From positions 1 to 34,530 of the forward strand of contig CANSAF010000027.1 in assembly GCA_947644645.1 (NCBI GenBank): a stretch of 34,530 nucleotides of DNA. The letters run 5' to 3'. Position 1 is the stretch's first letter; each line of letters starts with the position of its first letter. The notes under the pieces are model-generated. The model had not been told where the DNA came from, did no database searches, and saw nothing but the letters and a program-made list of their open reading frames with translations. This DNA is from an uncultured Sporosarcina sp. (GTDB lineage: Bacteria > Bacillota > Bacilli > Bacillales_A > Planococcaceae). A program made the position numbers and the translations under genes. This document shows, piece by piece, positions 11,459 through 16,825 of this stretch.

Positions 11459-11488
11459 TTGGCAAAGAACGTGAACAGATTGTATAAT
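11459..11488 (+). promoter_or_regulatory. Promoter of the Rpn nuclease gene
   Basis: TTGGCA (11459-11464) and a perfect TATAAT (11483-11488) are separated by 18 nt, a sigma-A type promoter. Transcription would begin near 11495, giving a leader of about 50 nt that contains the ten-G tract (11527-11536). Confidence 0.7.
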
Positions 11489-11543
11489 ATAGAATAAGGA
11501 GTATTAACTGAAAGCATGTTGTAAAAGGGGGGGGGGATACCTG

Positions 11544-12575
11544 TTGGTGAAGATGCAAAATGTACATGACAAGTTTTTCAAAGAAACCATGGGCGATGTG
11601 TCAACCGCAAAAGATTTTCTTACCCATTACTTGCCGAATAACATCATGAAAATTGTCGATGTGAACACATTAGAACCACAGAAAGACAGTTACATCAACA
11701 AAAAGCTAGAAGAAAATTTCTCCGATTTGCTTTTTAAAGTGGAGATCAATAAAAAAGAAGGTTATCTTTATTTTCTGTTTGAACATAAAAGTTATGAGGA
11801 CAAAGGGATTGCTTTCCAGCTATTGAAATACATGGTTGAAATTTGGGAAGCCAAAATGAAAAAAGAGAAAGCTAAAGAACTACCCATCATTATTCCACTT
11901 GTTATTCATCATGGAAGGTCGAGTTGGCGTATACCTTCTAACTTGGGGGCTATGCTAGATGGCTACGAAGAACTTTCAGAAGAATTGAAAATTCACGTAC
12001 CAAATTTTGAGTATTTACTCTACGATTTAACAATCTATGATGACGAAGATATTAAAGGAAATGCGCTAACAAGAATCTGGATGACCCTTTATCGTGATAT
12101 ATATACAAAAGATCCAAACGAGCTGTTACAATCTATATTCCGTTCAATCCATTATCTAATTGAATTAGAAGATAAACAAACGGGATTGGAATACTTTGAA
12201 ACGATGATGCGTTATATCTTTAGCGCCGCAAAAGATATAACGAAAAAAGACGTAGAAAAAATCATCCAACGACTGGAAACGACTTATCCTGAAGGGAGTG
12301 ACATCGCAATGACTTTAGCTGAAATGTGGAGAGATGAAGGGGTTCAACAAGGGCTACAACAAGGGCTGCAACAAGGGCTGCAACAAGGGCTCGAAAAAGG
12401 CGGAGCTTCTGCTCTTTCTGAAACAGCGATTCAATTATTGATTGAGCGATTTGGAAAAGTACCACAAGATATTAAAGACGGCATCGCAAACTCAGATACA
12501 GCTGCTTTGAAACTCTTATTAGTGAACAGCTTCAAGTTTCAGGAAATAGATGAGGCTAGAAGGTATATTCAATAA
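11544..12575 (+). CDS. Rpn-family PD-(D/E)XK nuclease (transposase_31-like)
   Basis: Member of the Rpn / YhgA-like family, related to recombination-promoting nucleases; 343 residues. The N-terminal nuclease domain has HDKFFKETM (residues 8-16), SDLLFKV with D61, and FLFEHKS with E80 and K82, forming the D...ExK active site, then PLVIHHGRSSW typical of the family. Residues 267-283 are four QGLQ-type repeats encoded by a 12-bp tandem repeat, followed by a helical C-terminal domain. The start is TTG at 11544 (or GTG at 11547), both just after a ten-G run that serves as Shine-Dalgarno. It has its own promoter and terminator, and sits between pheS and ysgA, where B. subtilis has none. Family members act in DNA breakage and phage defence; the role here is inferred. 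Confidence 0.88.
   Translation: MVKMQNVHDKFFKETMGDVSTAKDFLTHYLPNNIMKIVDVNTLEPQKDSYINKKLEENFSDLLFKVEINKKEGYLYFLFEHKSYEDKGIAFQLLKYMVEIWEAKMKKEKAKELPIIIPLVIHHGRSSWRIPSNLGAMLDGYEELSEELKIHVPNFEYLLYDLTIYDDEDIKGNALTRIWMTLYRDIYTKDPNELLQSIFRSIHYLIELEDKQTGLEYFETMMRYIFSAAKDITKKDVEKIIQRLETTYPEGSDIAMTLAEMWRDEGVQQGLQQGLQQGLQQGLEKGGASALSETAIQLLIERFGKVPQDIKDGIANSDTAALKLLLVNSFKFQEIDEARRYIQ
12309..12575 (+). CDS. Candidate intragenic C-terminal product of rpn (RpnS-like)
   Basis: Inside the rpn frame, ATG codon 256 is preceded by AAGGGAG (12292-12298) with 10-nt spacing, a better ribosome binding site than that of the full gene. Initiation here would give an 88-residue protein (MTLAEMWRDEGVQQG...) comprising the repeats and the C-terminal helical domain without the nuclease. 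Rpn loci of Escherichia coli have been reported to make such in-frame small C-terminal proteins that inhibit the toxic full-length nuclease. That parallel is inference; the internal start is seen directly. Confidence 0.45.
   Translation: MTLAEMWRDEGVQQGLQQGLQQGLQQGLEKGGASALSETAIQLLIERFGKVPQDIKDGIANSDTAALKLLLVNSFKFQEIDEARRYIQ
12345..12392 (+). repeat. Four 12-bp tandem repeats in rpn
   Basis: Four adjacent copies of CAACAAGGGCT[A/G/C], at 12345, 12357, 12369 and 12381. Each keeps the frame and encodes a QGLQ-type unit. The near-identity of the copies points to recent slippage or expansion. Confidence 0.95.
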
Positions 12576-12614
12576 CTCTAACACGATTCAGAGGGCTTAT
12601 TTCCTTTGACGCCG

Positions 12615-12666
12615 AAAACGAACCATCCGCAAAAGTTTTCATACAACTTTGCAGATGGTTCGTTTT
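12615..12666 (+). terminator. Terminator of rpn
   Basis: AAAACGAACCATC plus AAAAGTT pairs with AACTTT plus GATGGTTCGTTTT, a long imperfect hairpin ending in TTTT, 39 nt after the rpn stop. Confidence 0.65.
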
Positions 12667-12668
12667 AT

Positions 12669-12776
12669 CGTTTTCAAATTCATCGCCCGGTACATAAATG
12701 CCACAAATTGTGCACCTGTAACAAGTTCACTTGGTTCGTAATCTCCGTTATCTCCCAGCGTGATGTCATGAATCTA
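12669..12776 (-). pseudogene. Decayed SLH-domain fragment
   Basis: On the minus strand, 12767 down to 12669 reads DITLGDNGDYEPSELVTGAQ followed by FVAFMYRAMNLKT. The pattern (YEPSELVT-AQFVAFMYRAMNL) resembles the second half of an S-layer homology repeat, which anchors proteins to cell-wall polymers. A TAG lies two codons upstream at 12774-12776, and the preceding sequence (IPIRATYDLDS) is in another frame, so there is no start and at least one frameshift. It is best read as the remnant of a surface-protein gene lost from this spot. Confidence 0.5.
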
Positions 12777-12850
12777 AATCATAGGTTGCACGAATTGGAA
12801 TAAATAATCTCTTCCTCTTTCAAATCCCATATTCCATTCTACCCACTTGA

Positions 12851-13645
12851 TTATCCTAACACAGTTTGGTCACTTTCCAATTGTCTGCCGCGGATTCGTT
12901 GGAATTCATCCATCAAATTTTTAATCGTTAATTTCTTTTTCGCTTCTCCGCTTACATCAAAAATAATTTGCCCGGCATCCATCATAATTAACCGATTGCC
13001 CATATCAAGCGCTTGCTGCATATTATGCGTCACCATTAATGTCGTTAATTGGTGATTTTCTACAATTTCAGACGTTAAATCGGCAATTAATTCGGCACGT
13101 GCTGGATCGAGTGCTGCTGTATGTTCGTCTAATAATAAAATATCTGGCTCCGTAAAAGTCGCCATTAACAAAGACAACGCTTGCCTTTCTCCCCCGGAAA
13201 GTAAACCGACTTTAGCGTTTAATCGATTGTCTAACCCTAAATTTAATGTTTTCAATGCTTCTTTAAAAAATTCACGGCGTTGTTTTGTGACACCGAGCCT
13301 AAGCGTCCGCTTTTTATTTCTCGAATAAGCAATGGCTAAATTTTCTTCGATTGTCATTTCTGGTGCTGTCCCTGCCATTGGATCTTGGAAAACGCGACCA
13401 ATATATTTCGCACGGCTATATTCTGGGAGATGTGCAACTTGTTTTCCATCAATAAATATATCTCCCACATCTGCGATTAAGTTGCCCGAAATAATATTCA
13501 TCAATGTTGATTTGCCAGCACCATTCCCACCAATAACCGTAATAAACTCACCTTTTTTGAGTTCCAAATTAGTGTTTTTTAAAGCGCGTTTTTCATCTAA
13601 AGTGCCTTCATTAAAAGTCATTTCGATATGATTAAGCTTCAACAT
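12851..13645 (-). CDS. ABC transporter ATP-binding protein
   Basis: Nucleotide-binding subunit, 264 residues. Walker A GGNGAGKST lies at about residues 37-46, signature LSGGERQ near 148, and Walker B DILLLDEHTAALDP near 167-180, followed by the H-loop in VTHNM. It energises the permease encoded just upstream. The frame opens at an ATG at 13654, but the ATG at 13645 has GGG 10 nt upstream and is preferred; either start overlaps the permease stop, implying translational coupling. Together with a PF04392-type binding lipoprotein this is the set known for tryptophan/tyrosine-type uptake in other Firmicutes; the substrate here is not proven. Confidence 0.93.
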   Translation of the reverse strand: MLKLNHIEMTFNEGTLDEKRALKNTNLELKKGEFITVIGGNGAGKSTLMNIISGNLIADVGDIFIDGKQVAHLPEYSRAKYIGRVFQDPMAGTAPEMTIEENLAIAYSRNKKRTLRLGVTKQRREFFKEALKTLNLGLDNRLNAKVGLLSGGERQALSLLMATFTEPDILLLDEHTAALDPARAELIADLTSEIVENHQLTTLMVTHNMQQALDMGNRLIMMDAGQIIFDVSGEAKKKLTIKNLMDEFQRIRGRQLESDQTVLG

Positions 13646-14624
13646 TTTTTGCATTCCCTACTTTCAAAGCCGCGCGCTTCGCTAAACGACGCTTCTTCTC
13701 TTTTTGTACTTGTACAAATTTCGGCGTCACTAAAGCTAGAATAACAAGAATCGCTGTAATTAACTTCATATCTCCCGTTTCCAAAAAGCCAACGCGAAGT
13801 GCAAGTGCCACAACGATTCGATAAATCACTGCACCAAGAATAACCGCCAATGTCGCTTTCGCAACTGTTTTCGCTCCGAACAAAGCTTCCCCGATAATGA
13901 CTGACGCCAGTCCAATAATAATCATTCCAATGCCCATTCCGACATCCGTAAAGCCACCATATTGCGTAATTAAAGAACCTGAAAGCGCAACAAGCCCGTT
14001 TGAAATCCCTAACCCAATAATAATTAATGTATCCGTATTCGCCGAAAAACTACGGCTCATTACTTTATTATTTCCTGTCGCTCTAAGCCCTAAGCCAATT
14101 TCTGTTTTCAAGAAATAGTCAATTGTTAGTTTCATCATGATCATAAAGATAATCATAATAAACAAAATTCCCCATGTTGCCGGTAAACGATCTATCCCCA
14201 TGGAAGTGAATAAATTATTAATCACTCCATCAATGCCTGTTTTCTCCCAAATTTCAACAAATTGCTTTTTCAACGTCGACTCTCTCGACAAAGATAAGTT
14301 CGGTTTCCCCATAATTCGCAAATTAATCGAATAAAGTGCGATCATCATTAAAATTCCTGAAAGGAGCGCATTAATTTTTCCTTTTGTATGTAAAATTCCC
14401 GTTACACAACCCGCTAAAAAGCCGGCTAACGCACCAAATAAAGTGGCGAGCATTGGCGGAACACCGTTAATAATCGAAATGGCCGTTACAGCACCACCCG
14501 TTACAAAGCTTCCATCCACTGTTAAGTCTGGGAAATCTAGTATTCTAAAAGTTAAATACACACCAATCGCCATAATTGCATAAATAAATCCTGATTCAAC
14601 AGCACCAAACAAAGCTAAGAACAT
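13632..14624 (-). CDS. ABC transporter permease (BPD_transp_2 type)
   Basis: Integral membrane permease, 330 residues, with about nine hydrophobic segments and the early LTFRILDFPDLTVDGSF region typical of permeases paired with PF04392 binding proteins. The GTG at 14636 lacks a ribosome binding site; the ATG at 14624 has GAGGTGG 8 nt upstream and is chosen. It is the second gene of a three-gene operon. The gap to the upstream lipoprotein gene (about 257 nt) is unusually long because it carries an inverted-repeat insert. Confidence 0.92.
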   Translation of the reverse strand: MFLALFGAVESGFIYAIMAIGVYLTFRILDFPDLTVDGSFVTGGAVTAISIINGVPPMLATLFGALAGFLAGCVTGILHTKGKINALLSGILMMIALYSINLRIMGKPNLSLSRESTLKKQFVEIWEKTGIDGVINNLFTSMGIDRLPATWGILFIMIIFMIMMKLTIDYFLKTEIGLGLRATGNNKVMSRSFSANTDTLIIIGLGISNGLVALSGSLITQYGGFTDVGMGIGMIIIGLASVIIGEALFGAKTVAKATLAVILGAVIYRIVVALALRVGFLETGDMKLITAILVILALVTPKFVQVQKEKKRRLAKRAALKVGNAKNVEA

Positions 14625-14688
14625 TTCAATTTCCACCTCACTACTTTATATTTTCACCTTTATAGAGATTCGAAATATACAGTCTTTT

Positions 14689-14883
14689 AAAGAGGCTGTC
14701 CCAGAAGTCGAAAGGACGCGACTTTTAAGACGCCTTCCGTTTGTGCGAGCGCGGAAATGATACATTCCTTTACTTTTTGGGCTTCGTGCCTTGTAAGGAA
14801 AGTTCAATCAGCAGAGAAATGCACAAAATAAGCACACGCACAATCGGGAGGCGTCCAATAGCAAAGCTATTGGACAGCCTTTT
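14689..14883. repeat. MITE-like inverted-repeat element in the ABC operon
   Basis: About 195 bp is bounded by AAAGAGGCTGTCC (14689-14701) and GGACAGCCTTTT (14872-14883), near-perfect terminal inverted repeats of about 12 bp. Inside is a second perfect hairpin, GTCCAATAGC (14853-14862) with GCTATTGGAC (14866-14875), and no coding frame. It begins within the stop codon region of the lipoprotein gene. This fits a small non-autonomous transposable element, but other copies cannot be seen in this window. Confidence 0.45.
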
Positions 14884-15883
14884 ATTCTACAAACTCCGCG
14901 TCATCCCACTCATCATTCCACTCAATGCCTTGTGCTTCTGCCGCATCTTTATTGATAAATAATTTCAACTCTGGCGGATACTCCGCAGGAATTTCACTTG
15001 GATCTTTACCTTCTTTTAAAATTTCAGCAGCCATTTCCCCTGTACGGTATCCAATTGAATAATAATCAAATCCATAAGTCGCAAATCCACCTAATTCAAC
15101 AGAATCTGGTTCACCAACGATTAAAGGAATTTGTTGTTCATTCGCCACATCTACCACACTATCAAGTGCCGAAACGACTGTATTGTCTGTGAAAATATAA
15201 AACACATCAACATCGCCAACTAAAGTCATCGCTGCTTGTTGAACGTCTGCCGCTGTCGCAACTGTTCTTTCAACAAGCGTTAAACTTGTACCCTCTGCAA
15301 TTTCTTCAATTGCTTTCATTTGTGTTACGGAGTTTTGCTCTCCAGCATTATAAATAATACCGACTGTTGCATCTTTAAAATATTGATCGATAAATTCTAC
15401 TGTTTTTTCAATTGCCTCTGGATGTAAATCCACAACACCTGTAATATTTCCACCTGGGCTTTCCATCGAATCAATTAAATCCGCATCCACTGCATCTGTC
15501 ACTGATGTAAATAAAATTGGAATATCACTTGTCGCATTTTGCGCACCTAGCGCACTTGGTGTTGAATTCGCAAAGATTAGATCGACACCATCTGCCACAA
15601 ATTTATCCGCAATGACCGCAACATTATTCATATCATTTTGCGCACTTTGATAATCAATTTTCACATTAAGTCCTGATTCTTTAATTGCCGCTTTAAATCC
15701 TTCTGTTGCCGCATCTAGTGAAGGGTGTTCTAAAATTTGCGTAGCACCAATTATGTATTCCTTTCCAATACTTTCGCCATCACTACTGCTACTTCCACCT
15801 TCATTTTCTCCTTCACTTCCACAAGCCGCCAAAATAAACATACTTATTACCGCAAGGATCGTGAACTGTAAAAACTTTCTCAT
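14882..15883 (-). CDS. ABC transporter substrate-binding lipoprotein (PF04392 type)
   Basis: Binding protein, 333 residues. The signal peptide ends in a lipobox with LAAC (Cys21), then a Ser/Gly/Glu-rich linker leads to the mature two-lobed domain beginning EYIIGATQILEHPSLD, characteristic of the ABC_sub_bind family, with SATPSALG-type and VGEPDSVELGG motifs. It captures a small ligand outside the cell for the permease and ATPase that follow; members are known for tryptophan, tyrosine and similar ligands. The ATG at 15883 is preferred over the upstream GTG because a GGAGGGGG tract lies 11 nt before it. A strong promoter lies 59-87 nt upstream. Confidence 0.92.
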   Translation of the reverse strand: MRKFLQFTILAVISMFILAACGSEGENEGGSSSSDGESIGKEYIIGATQILEHPSLDAATEGFKAAIKESGLNVKIDYQSAQNDMNNVAVIADKFVADGVDLIFANSTPSALGAQNATSDIPILFTSVTDAVDADLIDSMESPGGNITGVVDLHPEAIEKTVEFIDQYFKDATVGIIYNAGEQNSVTQMKAIEEIAEGTSLTLVERTVATAADVQQAAMTLVGDVDVFYIFTDNTVVSALDSVVDVANEQQIPLIVGEPDSVELGGFATYGFDYYSIGYRTGEMAAEILKEGKDPSEIPAEYPPELKLFINKDAAEAQGIEWNDEWDDAEFVE

Positions 15884-15941
15884 CTGTCTATTTTCCCCCT
15901 CCACCTAATTGTTCGATAATTCAAACCTTATCGATTTATAC

Positions 15942-15970
15942 ATTATACTGACAAGCAATCTATGAAGCAA
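15942..15970 (-). promoter_or_regulatory. Promoter of the ABC transporter operon
   Basis: On the minus strand TTGCTT (15965-15970) and TATAAT (15942-15947) are separated by exactly 17 nt. No T-box or other leader element is visible between it and the lipoprotein start. Confidence 0.8.
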
Positions 15971-16002
15971 GTTAATTTTTCAGTATATTTATTATTTTGA
16001 AA

Positions 16003-16043
16003 TAAAAAAAGAAAGTTAGGGGCATCTTTCCCACTAACTTTCT
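16003..16043 (-). terminator. Terminator of ysgA
   Basis: AGAAAGTTAG (plus GGG) pairs with (CCC plus) CTAACTTTCT on the minus strand, followed by seven T, 15 nt after the ysgA stop. Confidence 0.88.
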
Positions 16044-16057
16044 GTCTGATTTTCTAA

Positions 16058-16825
16058 TTAGTTTTCTTCTGAATAAGCATACAAAAGAATCCCCGTCGCT
16101 ACCGCTACATTTAAAGATTCCGCTTTTCCGTAAATTGGAATGCGCACATTGACATCCGTTTGTTTTAATAACTCAGGACTCATGCCGCTTCCTTCATTCC
16201 CAACAATTAACGCAAACTTCCCATTTGTCTTCGGTGCTTTATAATCAACAGATTCTTCCAAACTTGTCCCAATGACTTGAATATCATTGTCCTTCGCTTT
16301 TTGAATCCAATCATTTAAATCACCACGAATAATTGGGATATGGAAATTCGATCCTTGCGCAGAACGCACTGTTTTTGGGCTGTATGGATCTGCTGCGCCT
16401 TTTCCAATAATAACCGCATCCATCCCCGCTGCGTCTGCAGTACGAATCATTGTCCCAACATTTCCAGGGTCTTGAACGGCATCAACAAATAAAAACTTCG
16501 TCCAGTTCGCTTGAATTTCTTCCTCGTATTCCGTTTGACGACAATGCGCATAAACACCTTGCGATTGTTCCGTTTCCGAAATCTCTTTCGCAACAGCTTT
16601 CGTAATTTCATTTACCACAATATTATCTAATTCCCAATGCAAAGGAAGCTCAACATCTTCACGTTTCATAATCGTTAACACAACATCTTTTGTCTTTAAC
16701 GCTTCTTCTACAAGATGAAAACCTTCAACTAAAAACTCTTTTGATTTATCCCGTTCTTTCCGCGTTAACACAAGCTTTTTCCAATGTTTCACCAATGCAT
16801 TTGAAGTTGATTCAATTCGTTTCAT
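16058..16825 (-). CDS. ysgA: SpoU/TrmH family RNA 2'-O-methyltransferase (YsgA)
   Basis: SPOUT-class methyltransferase, 255 residues. The N-terminal substrate-binding domain (about 1-95) has LVEGFHLVEEAL. The knotted catalytic domain carries motif 1 near DAVQDPGNVGTMIRTADAAG, motif 2 ALIVGNEGSGMS and motif 3 IPIYGKAESLNVAVATGI, which form the SAM pocket. It should methylate a ribose in rRNA or tRNA; the target is not known from sequence. In B. subtilis ysgA lies next to pheS; here rpn and the ABC operon separate them. Confidence 0.92.
   Translation of the reverse strand: MKRIESTSNALVKHWKKLVLTRKERDKSKEFLVEGFHLVEEALKTKDVVLTIMKREDVELPLHWELDNIVVNEITKAVAKEISETEQSQGVYAHCRQTEYEEEIQANWTKFLFVDAVQDPGNVGTMIRTADAAGMDAVIIGKGAADPYSPKTVRSAQGSNFHIPIIRGDLNDWIQKAKDNDIQVIGTSLEESVDYKAPKTNGKFALIVGNEGSGMSPELLKQTDVNVRIPIYGKAESLNVAVATGILLYAYSEEN

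Follow-up and report, generated by a model that had tools for sequence, protein, structure and literature searches.

The single rpn gene on the forward strand of the window, running from 11544/11547 to a TAA at 12573-12575, is best read as a one-gene rpnL/rpnS toxin-antitoxin unit, with a probability of roughly 0.8. The window is the whole 34,530-nucleotide stretch of DNA analysed, from an uncultured Sporosarcina sp. (contig CANSAF010000027.1). The full frame is predicted to encode a DNA nuclease, and a second, conserved start inside it most likely produces a small separate protein that restrains this nuclease, as in the E. coli relatives. For this organism, the synthesis of RpnS, its inhibitory action, the toxicity of RpnL and a role in phage defence are extrapolated from the E. 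coli work and would apply here by analogy. The features of the locus are as follows.

11459..11488, + strand: candidate rpn promoter, TTGGCA-18-TATAAT, 11/12 consensus positions
11527..11536, + strand: G10 tract, in the Shine-Dalgarno (SD) region of the full-length rpn start
11547..12575, + strand: rpnL, full-length Rpn nuclease, 342 aa from GTG 11547 (343 from TTG 11544)
11724..11819, + strand: PD-(D/E)XK core, D61, E80-x-K82 and Q92 in 343-aa numbering
12292..12298, + strand: internal SD AAGGGAG, extended pairing AAGGGAGTGA
12309..12575, + strand: rpnS, predicted C-terminal protein, ATG start, 88 aa, TAA 12573-12575
12339..12404, + strand: four-residue repeats of GxxQ/E type, six Gly in register in the window
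12405..12572, + strand: DUF4351-like C-terminal domain, PF14261 matched by 18/27 aligned RpnS but not by the window's own

The product of the gene passes the model cut-off of the Rpn / Transposase_31 nuclease family (PF04754, COG5464), scoring 213 bits against PF04754 (E 3.6e-63, cut-off 21) and 66.5 bits against TIGR01784 (cut-off 52.1). Compared with solved structures, the full-length protein found no match at E <= 1. Its nuclease motif is intact, with D61, E80, K82 and Q92 unchanged in all 14 aligned copies, the window among them. In RpnA, the substitutions D63A and E82A abolish activity (PMC5350276). The window residues D61, E80 and the others of the motif probably correspond to those of RpnA, as judged from the motif and its equal spacing.

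Translation of the full-length protein probably begins at GTG 11547, as homologues place their start codon in this column. This was the case in 11 of the 12 other homologues examined, seven of the 11 using GTG or TTG there; one of these seven (L026) has an additional ATG two codons upstream. The SD region of this start contains the G10 tract, which is the sole run of G or C of at least seven within the window; in 12 other homologues the G runs of this region reach a maximum length of 2 to 5. The tract is possibly a slippage site that could tune RpnL translation by changing length, or it may be a sequencing artefact. The TTGGCA-18-TATAAT sequence likely drives the full-length rpn mRNA. A promoter scan of the rpn region returned three candidates, a number not above that of shuffled sequences (mean 4.3), and TATAAT occurs within 110 nt before aligned codon 7 in 9 of the 12 other homologues covering the region.

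The second start lies at codon 256, counting TTG 11544 as codon 1. The window reads tgAAGGGAGtgacatcgcaATG here, with AAGGGAG at 12292-12298, a spacing of 10 nt, and ATG at 12309-12311. The preliminary description had given this motif, its spacing, the in-frame ATG and the 88-residue product, all of which are correct to the base. The predicted RpnS begins MTLAEMWRDE and contains GVQQGLQQGLQQGLQQGLEKGG, with GxxQ repeats followed by a further domain. The duplex of the internal SD with the 16S tail has an energy of -13.8 kcal/mol, the strongest among 469 internal in-frame ATG, GTG and TTG codons (214 of them ATG), the runner-up being -10.4. These codons were drawn from 28 long non-overlapping window ORFs, including the rpn ORF, which were picked mechanically and are not annotated. 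The SD had also been credited with a better spacing than the full-length SD has, which does not hold up: the full-length SD is comparable (-14.6 for TTG 11544 and -13.9 for GTG 11547), and its G-run likewise ends 10 nt from the GTG. The two starts differ instead in the start codon, GTG or TTG in 7/11 at the full-length position versus ATG in 28/28 at the internal one, which fits an excess of antitoxin.

Conservation was assessed over 28 aligned rpn ORFs, comprising the window gene and 27 relatives of the same genus, family and class selected for covering the site; as these ORFs are related, counts over them are not independent. All 28 carry both the ATG and an SD at the internal site, with SD energies of -11.3 to -15.1. 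A lack of conservation of this SD and ATG among homologues had been named beforehand as a refuting outcome, and the site proved to be conserved. This conservation strongly supports the core of the earlier proposal, in which an internal start of the Rpn gene gives a putative nuclease-free C-terminal protein of the RpnS type. The SD is held through changes of residue and codon, as in EGS (gaa ggg agt), KGS (aaa ggg agt), ERS (gaa agg agt) and KGE (aag gga gag). Codon 251 is GGG or GGA in 27 copies and AGG in one, and never GGC or GGT. Codons 248-252 rank first of 337 five-codon windows for synonymous conservation, with an observed/expected ratio of 1.51.

An alternative view, on which these data bear, is that the conserved residues EGSD preceding M256 account for the SD-like letters and that no separate protein is made. 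The residues alone do pair fairly strongly, with a mean of -9.0 over the 28 copies after synonymous shuffling. In the window gene by itself, real and shuffled values overlap, with a fraction of 0.116 of synonymous shuffles pairing equally well, which is not significant. However, the real mean is -13.9, a mean gain of about 5 kcal/mol through codon choice, and copy by copy 26/28 fall in the best quarter of their shuffles (below 0.25) and 10/28 below 0.05. The excess of pairing through codon choice is therefore apparent over the set and not in the window gene singly. The 162 other internal ATGs of the same 28 ORFs show no such excess (real -3.7, shuffled -3.8), and one of them reaches -11. The restriction of Gly and Ser codons, the retention of the SD while residues change, and the strong SD and start found before the repeats of Rpn ORFs with other residues also argue against a by-product, which is consequently very unlikely. 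Comparison of these sequences indicates that the internal site is not chance, and shows it to be constrained at the nucleotide level and conserved. The region around the internal start in the window folds weakly relative to its shuffles (z 1.83). RNA accessibility was rejected as a conserved feature of the site, with only 12 of the 28 copies less structured at the internal start than the gene mean.

A wider survey covered Rpn-related ORFs of at least 240 codons, found by iterated profile search of 125 loci, 74 of which remained after de-duplication, from 70 loci. The criterion was a best internal start at E <= -9 located 45-125 codons from the end, and non-Rpn ORFs of the same loci served as controls. 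The best internal start is strong and lies before the C-terminal domain in 69/74 Rpn ORFs versus 12/103 controls, and at E <= -11 the counts are 66 of 74 versus 2 of 103. In the five Rpn exceptions the best site lies closer to the 5' end of the ORF: four have it 128-141 codons from the end, and one has it at 300. The residues at the internal start vary by subfamily (MTLAE, MEITTSW, MMHNLE, METKE). An rpn from an Acetoanaerobium noterae plasmid record has an ATG as its best internal start, located 73 codons from the end and with an energy of -11.9. The single E. coli plasmid rpn examined has a weak SD (-6.1) at the matching ATG, and its best internal start is a different one; the energy measure therefore does not carry over to every Rpn. 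Homologues are patchy in distribution, with a match at E <= 0.001 in 24/68 genomes of the genus and 35/261 of the family, own genome included.

The start codons of the 69 survey sites are ATG in 63, GTG in four and TTG in two, therefore it is the start codon that is kept, and not methionine. SD-like sites inside genes can slow ribosomes, and the internal SD might accordingly act as a pause or frameshift signal between the nuclease and the C-terminal domain. A pause site needs no start codon, however, and the constant in-frame ATG of the aligned ORFs, together with the use of GTG or TTG as best internal start elsewhere, makes this the most improbable of the alternatives.

The preferred reading remains a toxin and antitoxin encoded by one gene. 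Ribosomes starting at GTG 11547 would make RpnL, in which a PD-(D/E)XK DNA endonuclease is linked to an oligomerisation domain at the C-terminus. A separate initiation at ATG 12309, using either the same mRNA or a short one, would yield this C-terminal domain alone as RpnS. RpnS would then bind its counterpart domain in RpnL by way of the long helix that bears the repeats, holding the nuclease inactive, and release, for example upon phage infection, would allow RpnL to cut DNA. As RpnL and RpnS share one coding region, a change in repeat number alters both partners together.

Instead of inhibiting the nuclease, RpnS might serve as one of its structural subunits or help in its assembly, like the internally translated Cas11d, which is unlikely but the best placed of the alternatives. 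From a conserved internal start one can conclude only that the short protein has some importance, and the repeat helix of RpnAS is situated in the dimer interface (PMC10327210), both of which are compatible with a structural role. In E. coli, however, the RpnS of RpnA, RpnB and RpnP2 counteracts RpnL (PMC10327210), and the lesions of related loci also fit inhibition better. Lesions were classified in 41 loci at >=40% identity, five duplicate loci having been removed first, and the nuclease was taken as intact when one open frame ran from residue <=30 to >=250 (L034 begins at 29). Both halves are intact in 14 loci, and RpnS is intact with a broken or missing nuclease half in 13, while an intact nuclease half without RpnS was found in 0 of the 41.

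The scripted count was 14 with both, 14 with RpnS only and 13 with neither, from which L012 was set aside, as it is another full-length Rpn matched solely at the repeats, leaving 13 RpnS-only loci. The 13 loci with neither include cases at contig edges or of other subfamilies (L054, L055, L056, L060), and some short match places were left out of the classification. L027, in which RpnS is intact and the nuclease half replaced, is below the identity filter and uncounted. The asymmetry is suggestive, being the pattern an antitoxin would give, and one that 5' truncation and relatedness could also yield. Several truncated relatives consist mainly of RpnS plus its SD and start.

Individual partial copies illustrate these arrangements. 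The genome of the window itself holds a second, truncated rpn remnant (L002 250-615; G000 contig C103), with an internal start SD of -12.2, which ends in the repeats. L027 (1498-1989) combines the end of a RelE-like toxin gene (PF06296 at E 0.0053, which is below cut-off) with an intact RpnS that follows in frame and keeps its SD and start, an arrangement that is chimeric or decayed. Purifying selection on orphan RpnS was considered from the pair L040 and L049, which seemed constrained in RpnS and neutral upstream, and was rejected as an artefact of misaligned repeats. A recount gave one amino-acid change and no silent change in 41 upstream codons, and two of each in the 80 codons of RpnS.

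The repeats vary in number, with 3 to 7 in-register Gly across the 27 aligned RpnS; in the window the first repeat Gly is RpnS residue 11. The near-identical copies L040 and L049, from two genomes, differ by one repeat. The domain that follows had been described as very different from that of the E. coli proteins, and this stands in so far as the window's own 88-residue RpnS has no DUF4351 (PF14261) match at E <= 1. It does not hold more widely, 18/27 aligned RpnS matching DUF4351 at this threshold (best 1.5e-9). An RpnS profile run against solved structures gave six chance-level matches (best E 0.24), with no Rpn protein among them.

Two relatives keep the internal start while carrying a different C-terminal end: L006 (1393-2361), with a nuclease half 63% identical to the window, and L009 (1498-2490), at 48%. 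The alignment of L006 to the window stops at residue 286-288, and L006 and L009 jointly place the change at about residue 286-291, at or directly after the repeats. It is conceivable, if rather doubtful, that the internal start defines Rpn genes far beyond E. coli and that the repeat region forms a joint for swapping antitoxin domains. Decay would then lose the nuclease half, with RpnS surviving as a free antitoxin able to neutralise an incoming Rpn, so that orphan RpnS would be anti-addiction or anti-defence genes.

The rpn gene lies in a block at 11500-16058 that also holds an ABC transporter (substrate-binding protein, permease and ATPase), between pheS and ysgA. In 9/9 same-genus relatives examined, ysgA adjoins pheS with a gap of < 1 kb and no rpn or transporter match between them, which fits acquisition of the block. 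When the window flanks were compared with the 125 loci, the only match besides the window's own loci was 63 nt before rpn in L003. None of five neighbours scanned with Pfam is a defence gene, and PADLOC, run on the rpn products only, returned a single weak hit, to the repeats. Just 3' of rpn, at 12605-12675, a long imperfect inverted repeat (aaacgaaccatc...gatggttcgttt) appears as a self-match and is absent from the terminator scan; it is likely a terminator. An internal promoter for RpnS was also considered and is not proposed, since the best promoter-like scores fall at scattered places and are close to the scores in a control segment taken from these genes. No promoter-like site occurs at a conserved place before the internal start in the 28 copies, by a consensus scan that cannot exclude one.

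Few features of these genes are as well conserved as the internal site, so an annotation of one protein per rpn would miss a second product. The survey turns a finding made in E. coli and C. difficile into a testable rule, namely a strong, well-placed internal start in 69/74 Rpn ORFs. The candidates in Sporosarcina-like hosts and the natural RpnS-only copies offer material on the restraint and release of Rpn toxins.

The gene-within-gene toxin-antitoxin arrangement of RpnL and RpnS was reported by Zhong et al. 2023 for the E. coli set RpnA-E and RpnP2 and for a tested C. difficile rpn (PMC10327210). The same study describes four-residue repeats of variable number in RpnS, listing those of B. 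cereus too, an internal transcript for RpnS in E. coli rpn genes, and the name DUF4351 (PF14261) for RpnS, including the stand-alone RpnS genes YpaA/RpnES (PMC10327210). A literature search on Rpn, intragenic antitoxin, DUF4351 and Sporosarcina found the intragenic antitoxin in this one paper among the matches listed (PMC10327210). The preliminary description held that the locus would extend this toxin-antitoxin type, a weaker part of its reading, since the Gram-positive C. difficile rpn, the B. cereus repeats and DUF4351 were already published (PMC10327210). The assignment of the window locus to the known RpnL/RpnS kind is real and well supported; the principle, the Gram-positive example and the repeats are prior work (PMC10327210). 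What the present analysis adds to the main text of that paper is the survey count and the RpnS-only copies.

Like the E. coli and C. difficile RpnL/RpnS, the window gene encodes a PD-(D/E)XK Rpn nuclease and has a predicted internal ribosome binding site and a start codon ahead of the C-terminal domain. It also shares the four-residue repeats, which vary in number and begin soon after the short protein's start, 8-20 residues from it by the criterion used. Where the window has MTLAEMW, the E. coli plasmid rpn has the similar MTIAERL. Directly after this plasmid gene (L141 1465-2672) there is a small CDS resembling a stand-alone RpnS, annotated as hypothetical and containing MTIAERL...GFKEGFKEGF repeats. 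The window differs from the E. coli RpnL/RpnS in having what is probably a DUF4351-like C-terminal domain and in that no internal promoter was found here, and its internal SD (-13.8) is much stronger than that of the E. coli plasmid rpn (-6.1). The stand-alone YpaA/RpnES belong to the same domain class, whereas RpnS of the window is encoded within an intact rpn.
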